Source: Rhodophyticola porphyridii
GTDB taxonomy: Bacteria; Pseudomonadota; Alphaproteobacteria; Rhodobacterales; Rhodobacteraceae
Reading direction: 5' to 3'
Length of the DNA: 64,000 bases
Assembly (NCBI RefSeq): GCF_003688285.1
Contig: NZ_RCNT01000002.1
Coordinates: 62,001 to 126,000, forward strand
Below, one piece after another: positions 12,973 to 14,616 of this stretch. The first letter of the stretch is position 1. Every line of letters starts with the position of its first letter. The notes under the pieces were generated by a model. It did not search any database. It was given only the letters and a program-made list of their open reading frames with translations, and was not told the DNA's origin. The translations under genes were made by a program, and so were the position numbers.

Positions 12973-14616
12973 ATGTCGTTTTTCAAGAAACTTAAGGATC
13001 GGATGTTCAAATCCTCGTCGAAGATCGATGAAGGGTTGGATGCGATCATCGAGGACGGGGCCGCGGACGCGCCCGAGGAACCGGCCAATCCGGTCGAAGA
13101 GGTCTTGCCGCAACCGGCAATGAACGCGATTTCAGAGCCAGAGCCAGAGCCAGAGCCAGAGCCAGAGCCAGAGCCAGAGCCAGAGCCAGAGCCAGAGCCA
13201 GAGCCAGAGCCAGAGCCAGAGCCAGAGCCAGAGCCAGAGCCAGAGCCAGAGCCAGAGCCAGAGCCAGAGCCAGAGCCAGAGCCAGAGCCAGAGCCAGAGC
13301 CAGAGCCAGAGCCAGAGCCAGAGCCAGAGCCAGAGCCAGAGCCAGAGCCAGAGCCAGAGCCAGAGCCAGAGCCAGAGCCAGAGCCAGAGCCAGAGCCAGA
13401 GCCAGAGCCAGAGCCAGAGCCAGAGCCAGAGCCAGAGCCAGAGCCAGAGCCAGAGCCAGAGCCAGAGCCAGAGCCAGAGCCAGAGCCAGAGCCAGAGCCA
13501 GAGCCAGAGCCAGAGCCAGAGCCAGAGCCAGAGCCAGAGCCAGAGCCAGAGCCAGAGCCAGAGCCAGAGCCAGAGCCAGAGCCAGAGCCAGAGCCAGAGC
13601 CAGAGCCAGAGCCAGAGCCAGAGCCAGAGCCAGAGCCAGAGCCAGAGCCAGAGCCAGAGCCAGAGCCAGAGCCAGAGCCAGACGTAGAGCCGCTGCGCGT
13701 CGACCTGACGGCGGAACGGATTTCGGAGCCGGAGGCCAAACCCGGCCTTCTGGGCCGCATCATCGGGCGCAGCGCCGTGCCGCGCCGGGCGCTGGATGAC
13801 GACATGCTGGAGCGGCTGGAGGAACTGCTGATCTCCGCCGATATGGGTGTGGACACGGCATTGCGGGTCACCGCCAACATGGCCGAAGGGCGCTATGGCA
13901 AGATGCTGAGCGCGGAGGAGATCAAGGGCCTTCTGGCAGCCGAGATCGCTCGCGTGATGGAACCTGTGGCCCGGCCGCTGCCGATCTACCCCAGGAAACC
14001 GCAGGTCGTGCTGGTCGTGGGCGTGAACGGCTCCGGCAAGACCACGACCATCGGCAAGCTCGCCAGCCAGTTCAAGGCGGCGGGCAAGCAGGTGGTGATC
14101 GCCGCGGGCGACACGTTCCGCGCCGCCGCGGTGGAGCAGTTGCAGGTCTGGGGGGAACGGGCGGGGGTGCCGGTTCTGACCGCGCCCGAAGGATCGGACC
14201 CCGCCGCGCTCGCCTTCGACGCGATGACGAAGGCGGAGGCCGAAGGCGCCGATCTGCTGATGATCGACACTGCCGGGCGGTTGCAGAACCGGGCTGACCT
14301 GATGGAGGAACTGGCCAAGATCGTCCGCGTGATCCGCAAGAAGGATCCCGACGCACCCCACAATACACTGCTGGTGCTGGATGCGACCACCGGGCAGAAC
14401 GCCCTGTCTCAGGTGGAGACATTCCAGAAGATGGCCGATGTGACCGGCCTTGTGATGACCAAGCTGGACGGCACCGCCAAGGGCGGCGTGCTTGTGGCAC
14501 TGGCCGACAAGTTCGGCCTGCCGATCCACGCCATCGGGGTCGGCGAGCAGATCGACGATCTGGCCCCGTTCGACCCGGAGGAGTTCGCCCGCGCGCTGAC
14601 CGGGGCGGACGGTTGA
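12973..14616 (+). CDS. ftsY: Signal recognition particle receptor FtsY with a giant Glu-Pro repeat
   Basis: A 547-residue SRP receptor that docks SRP-ribosome complexes at the membrane. The first 54 residues are a basic, then acidic, leader ([17 protein letters not shown]). Residues 55-236 are 91 uninterrupted Glu-Pro dipeptides. The NG domain follows from about residue 260. It has the P-loop [10 protein letters not shown] (Lys356), [23 protein letters not shown], and [10 protein letters not shown], so GTPase function should be intact. Acidic, variable N-terminal A regions are normal in FtsY, but a perfect dipeptide array of this size is striking. The ATG at 12973 gives the usual MxFFKKLK start. 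The stop overlaps the TTG start of the next GNAT gene. Confidence 0.96.
13135..13680 (+). repeat. Perfect 6-bp tandem repeat, 91 copies of GAGCCA
   Basis: The stretch is 546 bases of GAGCCA with no substitution, coding for (Glu-Pro)91 in the ftsY frame. A degenerate edge unit follows (GACGTAGAGCCG, Asp-Val-Glu-Pro). Proline is always CCA, whereas prolines elsewhere in this GC-rich gene mostly use CCG or CCC. Absence of any variant unit argues for recent expansion by slippage or unequal exchange. The unit is two codons, so copy-number change would alter length without shifting frame. The true copy number depends on correct assembly. Confidence 0.98.

Follow-up and report, generated by a model that had tools for sequence, protein, structure and literature searches.

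A long perfect GAGCCA array encoding a Glu-Pro tract in the ftsY gene of Rhodophyticola porphyridii, with shorter arrays in related Rhodobacteraceae

The ftsY array and its protein

The window analyzed here is a 64,000-nucleotide stretch of the Rhodophyticola porphyridii genome (contig NZ_RCNT01000002.1, positions 62,001 to 126,000). It contains a single tandem array, to which TRF assigns a period of 6, 91.7 copies, 100% matches and 0 indels (Table 1). Direct reading of the sequence gives (GAGCCA)91, encoding (Glu-Pro)91 in frame within an open reading frame of 547 codons that begins with ATG; the array supplies 182 of the 547 residues, about a third of the protein. The open reading frame is ftsY, which encodes the SRP receptor: it scores 333.5 bits against NCBIfam TIGR00064 (curated cut-off 260.7) and 247.3 bits against Pfam SRP54, and the part following the array finds FtsY (PDB 6fqd, E = 8.2e-93) as its best match among solved structures. 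The 91 perfect in-frame units reported in a preliminary description of this DNA are present as described, although the number 91 itself is uncertain. With tandem units in the range of 1–6 bases and high purity, the array has the properties of a coding microsatellite.

When (GAGCCA)4 was sought throughout the 3.84-Mb, 22-contig assembly, 88 overlapping matches were obtained, all within the ftsY array and none elsewhere; the more general pattern (GARCCN)5 followed by a non-G base had no match in the same assembly. In ten coding segments near the array, which include both non-array parts of ftsY, 4 of 142 proline codons are CCA, and ftsY without the array has none among its 22, bearing out the earlier remark that the array departs from surrounding proline codon usage. 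At local usage, 91 CCA and 91 GAG codons would be drawn with log10 P of about -157. Two other reading frames in the window may be mentioned. An ORF at 14613–15005 encodes a GNAT acetyltransferase, and its start is listed as a TTG that overlaps the stop codon of ftsY; an ORF at 10530–12227 fuses a thioredoxin-like [2Fe-2S] (NuoE-like) domain to a Nuo51/NuoF-like domain (Pfam).

Table 1. Features of the ftsY locus, numbered from the first base of the window
Feature	Position	Strand	Evidence
ftsY coding sequence, SRP receptor	12973..14616	+	ORF list, TIGR00064, SRP54, PDB 6fqd
N-terminal helix, residues 2-30, presumed first membrane-binding motif (alphaA1-like)	12976..13062	+	AlphaFold2, conservation, E. 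coli analogy
Short acidic A-domain leader before the array	13063..13134	+	Sequence; alignment to the sister genome extends to ...GATTTCA
(GAGCCA)91 array	13135..13680 (TRF 13133-13682)	+	TRF and direct reading; no helix or strand, pLDDT ~50 in model
Conserved 17-residue A/N-boundary segment, presumed second membrane-binding motif (alphaN1-like)	13738..13788	+	Conservation, E. coli analogy
NG GTPase domain (SRP54_N and SRP54), motifs intact	13789..14604	+	Pfam, conservation, model

Among 30 FtsY proteins, residues M1, F4, K6, L7, K8, S14 and S15 at the N-terminus are invariant, as are G258, R262 and R272 at the A/N boundary, where P257, G261, G265 and R266 are nearly so; the GTPase motifs, including the P-loop and GVGEQ, are also invariant. 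An AlphaFold2 model built from the 30 sequences (mean pLDDT 61.5, pTM 0.48) contains the N-terminal helix and, with mixed confidence, the helices and strands of the NG domain. By analogy with E. coli FtsY, the N-terminal helix and the A/N segment are presumed to be two membrane-binding motifs flanking the A-domain, and the array between them is probably a disordered, polyproline-II-prone polyanion. The calculated net charge of FtsY is -107 with the array and -16 without it, in agreement with the 91 added negative charges counted earlier, and the calculated mass is 59.4 kDa with the array and 38.8 kDa without. The array had also been proposed to act as a spacer spanning some 55 nm. This figure holds for the contour length, which is 56.4 nm at 0.31 nm per residue, but not for the mean reach: treated as a worm-like chain, the tract has an rms reach of 10.5, 14.8, 17.9 and 21.4 nm when persistence lengths of 1, 2, 3 and 4.4 nm, respectively, are assumed.

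The ftsY array site in related genomes

Seven genomes of the genus, one per species and including R. porphyridii itself (G000), were compared at the ftsY locus. The nearest is the sister genome, Boseongicola sp. H5 (G005, locus L039), with flank DNA identities of 95.2% over 4,023 bp and 95.6% over 2,998 bp. Its array consists of 15 units, 14 GAGCCA and one GAGCCG, against the 91 assembled in R. porphyridii, a length difference between close relatives of the kind that marks microsatellites. Arrays are also present in G001 (10 GAGCCT), G003 (9 units, 8 GAGCCT and GAGCCG) and G002 (GAGCCT again, with 18 units at one end of its single contig and 7 at the other), whereas ftsY of G004 and G006 has no such array. 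Both ends of the 3.59-Mb contig of G002 (L011, L025) lie in the ftsY array, and since they cannot be joined in register the contig seems to break inside it.

The R. porphyridii and sister genes differ at 36 third positions in the 309 codons 3′ of the array. About 10.6 third-position changes would be expected in the 182 array codons on one lineage, and none was found (P0 ~2.5e-5); because of this deficit the 91-unit array is taken to be either younger than the split between the two genomes or continually homogenized. The position of the (EP)n tract, on the other hand, is older than the species, because the same AISEPEP motif precedes both the GAGCCT arrays of G001 and G002 and the GAGCCA arrays of R. 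porphyridii and its sister. The earlier proposal of a young array amplified from one unit thus stands for the content of the array and not for its site.

To place these arrays in a wider frame, a family set of 198 genomes from 197 genera, almost one per genus, was surveyed; 187 of them yielded an FtsY match at E ≤ 1e-90. The A-domains of the best 100 of the 187 FtsYs other than those of R. porphyridii and G004, a sample that leans to near relatives, were read directly. Eleven of the 100 contain a Glu-Pro codon run of at least 8 units, the longest being 21. In 83 of the 100 no run reaches 4 units, and 5 extend past the end of their contig. In a named set of 80 loci, one of which (L083) yielded no reading frame, a run of at least 8 units was present in 7 of the 79 readable genes, up to 26 plus 10 units, and absent from the other 72. 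No relative read has an ftsY array of the R. porphyridii length, in keeping with the young array of the preliminary description.

Two Glu-Pro codon patterns were also run over the 198 genomes, where they matched 10 and 19 genomes at a total of 31 loci. Eighteen of the loci are in ftsY (17 genes, one of them split between contigs) and 13 are in other genes, which by eye include MerR-type regulators, a TonB-like protein, a response regulator and surface-type proteins. Counting as pure an array in which all units but at most one are identical, at least 20 of the 198 genomes have a pure ftsY array that is 8 units long or longer: 16 from the patterns, R. porphyridii, and three (G025, G181 and G192) by direct reading only. 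The figure is a lower bound, as the patterns miss arrays followed by G and a non-A base or by GAC or GAT, the R. porphyridii array included. The array is therefore not an isolated oddity. All fetched loci together yield 36 distinct pure ftsY arrays from 29 genomes, a count that includes two corrections by hand (one G162 array was assigned to ftsY, and two G152 loci were merged as one gene over two contigs) and excludes a mixed-codon ftsY run (G076, L281). Several ftsY genes hold two arrays, each of a different hexamer. On a quick tree of 83 FtsY rows, from which L083 was dropped, array presence changes at least 6 times, with 28 of the 80 inner branches open. Seven other family ftsY loci (L045, L050, L055, L059, L085, L089 and L094) encode long A-domains that are rich in Ala, Glu, Gln and Arg rather than in proline and are possibly coiled-coil, so that two kinds of FtsY linker, proline-rich and Ala/Glu/Gln/Arg-rich, occur in one family.

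The choice of hexamer does not follow codon usage. The units of the 36 pure arrays are GAGCCA in 18 cases, GAGCCT in 8, GAACCC in 6, GAACCG in 3, GAGCCC in 1 and GAGCCG in none, whereas Pro and Glu codon usage in 79 family FtsYs predicts 1.1 GAGCCA and 9.9 GAGCCG arrays of 36, in a test that counts the arrays as independent although they are related. The direction against codon usage argues for amplification of particular units at the DNA level. Folding of single-stranded DNA gave -29.6 kcal/mol for (GAGCCG)15, the codon-preferred unit, and -2.8 kcal/mol for (GAGCCA)15. A rule of hairpin avoidance fits the absence of GAGCCG but was rejected, since over the eight Glu-Pro hexamers the Spearman coefficient is -0.19 (p 0.66): GAACCA and GAACCT do not fold and yet are absent, and GAACCG folds as strongly and yet occurs 3 times.

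Number of repeat units

How far the count of 91 can be trusted depends on how the genome was assembled. For 20 of the 22 contigs, the terminal 600 bases at either end were compared, four contigs giving only N. Exactly 123 terminal bases are common to nine contig-end pairs, and 121–122 bases to seven more; we infer from these fixed-length overlaps that the contigs come from a k-mer (de Bruijn) graph with k near 123, and the assembly looks like a short-read one. Copies of rRNA, sought in the assembly as an independent test of its type, were not found, with a control positive in 9 of 14 genomes; because four of the 20 contigs had only-N ends this test is uninformative, and the contig-end overlaps were used instead. 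Since k-mer graphs resolve a repeat only if it is shorter than k (PMC6868369), a 550-bp perfect hexamer array would form a loop in the graph, and its count would have to come from coverage, pairing or gap filling. The 550 bp of repeat were thus probably not spanned by reads, and 91 is probably the assembler's estimate. Arrays shorter than about k+6 bases, or ~22 units, would assemble exactly, so the R. porphyridii array should be truly long, with a minimum of ~22 units.

It is possible, if somewhat less than an even matter, that the array is real but that its true number of units is far from 91, the k-mer assembler having guessed the loop count. The nine pairs with exactly 123 common bases and the behavior of k-mer graphs with repeats longer than k (PMC6868369) point in this direction, as does the size of the next longest ftsY arrays found, which have 26, 24 and 21 units. 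Weighing on the other side, arrays shorter than k would be resolved exactly, so that a long output array implies at least ~22 units, and the existence of arrays of such length is supported by a pure (GAGCCT)79 array encoding (Glu-Pro)79 in a one-contig genome (G009, L284, locus positions 1075–1548), in a gene other than ftsY. Long arrays are, moreover, probably common, because a contig ends inside the ftsY array or no more than 7 bases away in 8 of the 29 array-bearing genomes (G002, G007, G025, G152, G179, G190, L088 and L110). For the same reason long ftsY arrays are probably under-reported, and commoner than assemblies show, a blind spot of short-read genomes. In the named set a contig end lies within 700 bp upstream of the NG match at 8 of 80 loci, against 3 of 80 at 700–3000 bp; two of those 8 loci (L088 and L110) end in a pure array, and the comparison lends weak support to under-reporting. 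In G190 two contigs, C17 and C19 (L276, L288), break off within Glu-Pro arrays; one array belongs to ftsY and the other to a response-regulator-like gene.

Explanations for the array and comparison with known systems

The E. coli A-domain is acidic and poorly conserved; the extreme N-terminus of E. coli FtsY mediates a dynamic membrane mode and alphaN1 a stable mode, and the acidic remainder of the A-domain inhibits the stable mode before SRP binding (PMC5533587). The A-domain has been called non-essential (PMC2780400) and the role of its acidic part unclear (PMC5533587). R. porphyridii FtsY has the identical domain order, with an acidic linker between a presumed N-terminal lipid-binding motif and a presumed alphaN1-like motif and NG, but one repeat makes up 182 of its 547 residues; the consulted sections of the E. 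coli source do not mention a long pure Glu-Pro microsatellite (PMC5533587).

We consider it likely that the array is a fast-turnover coding microsatellite in an acidic, probably disordered A-domain linker, and that its length is tolerated because the linker works as a polyanionic tether. The GAGCCA array would turn over by replication slippage, unequal recombination or both, in steps that preserve the reading frame, and would recently have grown from a shorter array, comparable to the 15-unit one in the sister genome, to its unusual length (91 as assembled, at least ~22). In the protein it would form a flexible acidic tether, with the N-terminal membrane helix on one side and the second membrane motif and the NG GTPase on the other. 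The first helix would dock FtsY on lipid, and the acidic linker would keep the second motif from engaging the membrane before SRP binding; these steps are carried over to R. porphyridii from the E. coli A-domain reports. Each unit keeps the frame and adds one charge and ~0.6 nm of contour, so that length changes would be tolerated within wide limits and drift in a near-neutral manner. The variation of array length among relatives at ~95% flank identity, with GTPase motifs intact, agrees with this reading, and it is from such differences between species, each represented by one genome, that the instability of the array is inferred. The perfect units with their rare codon, the recurrence of pure arrays in ftsY across the family, the genes with two arrays of different hexamers and the contigs that end in an array also favor it. 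Set against it are the many relatives without arrays (the 83 of 100 and 72 of 79 genes counted above) and the preference for GAGCCA, which slippage of whichever codon is common does not explain. Recurrence in one gene could also mean selection for Glu-Pro content rather than tolerance. Loss of mismatch repair as a cause of the expansion was dropped because MutS, the one component looked for, is present in R. porphyridii (859.6 bits, cut-off 641.7).

Selection for the long linker itself, for instance as a means of adjusting how the SRP receptor is released or of getting past crowded ribosomes, would account for ftsY arrays in at least 20 of 198 family genomes and for the concentration of 18 of 31 pattern loci in ftsY, far above what is expected of one gene among thousands. 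We regard it as unlikely, given the sixfold gap in length to the sister genome (15 versus 91), the lack of an array in two of the seven genus genomes, and the many family A-domains that are short or differently composed, some of them Ala/Glu/Gln/Arg-rich. Comparably improbable is a broader proposal in which ftsY throughout the family is a recurrent hypermutable length-tuning locus: hexamer arrays would repeatedly be born, homogenized and expanded in the A-domain, often past the limit of short-read assembly, and a spread of tether lengths within a population would produce graded membrane engagement of the SRP receptor on which selection acts. Still less probable is tuning in the manner of contingency loci, with copy number varying between cells and graded FtsY membrane affinity as the selected output, although the variation in length between cells raised in the preliminary description is in itself plausible. 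A frame-preserving unit, high purity and an array size suited to frequent length change would favor such tuning, and in E. coli acidic A-domain content inhibits stable membrane binding (PMC5533587).

Counting against it, contingency loci of the classic type turn genes on and off through frameshifts, and length changes in a hexamer array cause none. Contingency loci and other bacterial coding microsatellites share with the ftsY array short tandem units prone to length change; they differ in that the 6-base ftsY unit keeps the frame, provides no on/off switch and sits in a core cytoplasmic gene. At a phase-variable locus repeat changes alter the frame or promoter spacing, and the ftsY array is neither out of frame nor outside the coding sequence. 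An action of the array at the DNA or antisense level is very improbable. Two antisense ORFs of 360 and 465 amino acids, on the minus strand at 12798–13880 and 13132–14529, do span it, and the antisense frames read (Gly-Ser)n and (Leu-Trp)n; these open frames are, however, a mechanical result of a stop-free hexamer, and the Glu-Pro frame is preserved in relatives whose arrays use different synonymous hexamers. In R. porphyridii a core protein whose GTPase is strongly conserved nevertheless devotes a third of its length to one probably unstable dipeptide repeat, and the series found in relatives (0, 9, 10, 15, 26 and perhaps 91 units) offers a natural length ladder for A-domain function.

A search of titles and the starts of abstracts found no paper on Glu-Pro microsatellites in bacterial FtsY. 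A variable FtsY N-terminal region has been described in Halobacteria and many other euryarchaea (PMC9425974), and FtsY is among the archaeal proteins with low-complexity regions (PMC6821194). The archaeal and Rhodobacteraceae proteins are alike in having a variable or low-complexity N-terminal region and a conserved remainder, but in the proteobacterial family the variable region consists of pure hexanucleotide arrays. For this family, the arrays appear to contradict the statement of PMC9425974 that FtsY of Proteobacteria lacks the variable region.

Glu-Pro repeats of other proteins provide analogues of the peptide, not relatives of it. Those of TonB adopt the polyproline II form (PMC10771500), one that the R. 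porphyridii sequence would fit; in the model its array has no predicted helix or strand. The TonB Glu-Pro/Lys-Pro linker is a periplasmic proline-rich region of ~70 residues, in contrast to 182 residues in a cytoplasmic GTPase receptor. The parasite Trypanosoma brucei has a surface protein, EP procyclin, that also contains Glu-Pro dipeptides in tandem, one listed gene having 29 (PMC2254594); the Pfam model Trypan_PARP scores R. porphyridii FtsY at 67.1 bits, below its gathering cut-off of 100. A class set of 289 genomes, four of them Rhodobacteraceae with R. porphyridii among these, was searched with a pattern stricter than the family patterns, admitting only arrays followed by GAR and then a non-C base. 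A (EP)10 run with this ending was found in 6 of the 289 genomes, with mixed synonymous codons in 5 of the 6 and none of the six in FtsY. One alphaproteobacterial protein, FecR-like by eye (L292, G214:C1), has a 70-unit Glu-Pro run of mixed codons, unlike the pure ftsY arrays. The protein with the 79-unit array in G009 is ~950 amino acids long and has a hydrophobic segment and an additional in-frame (Glu-Thr)31 array; a similar-looking protein in G156 (L263) carries 16 units, which makes this a second gene prone to such arrays.
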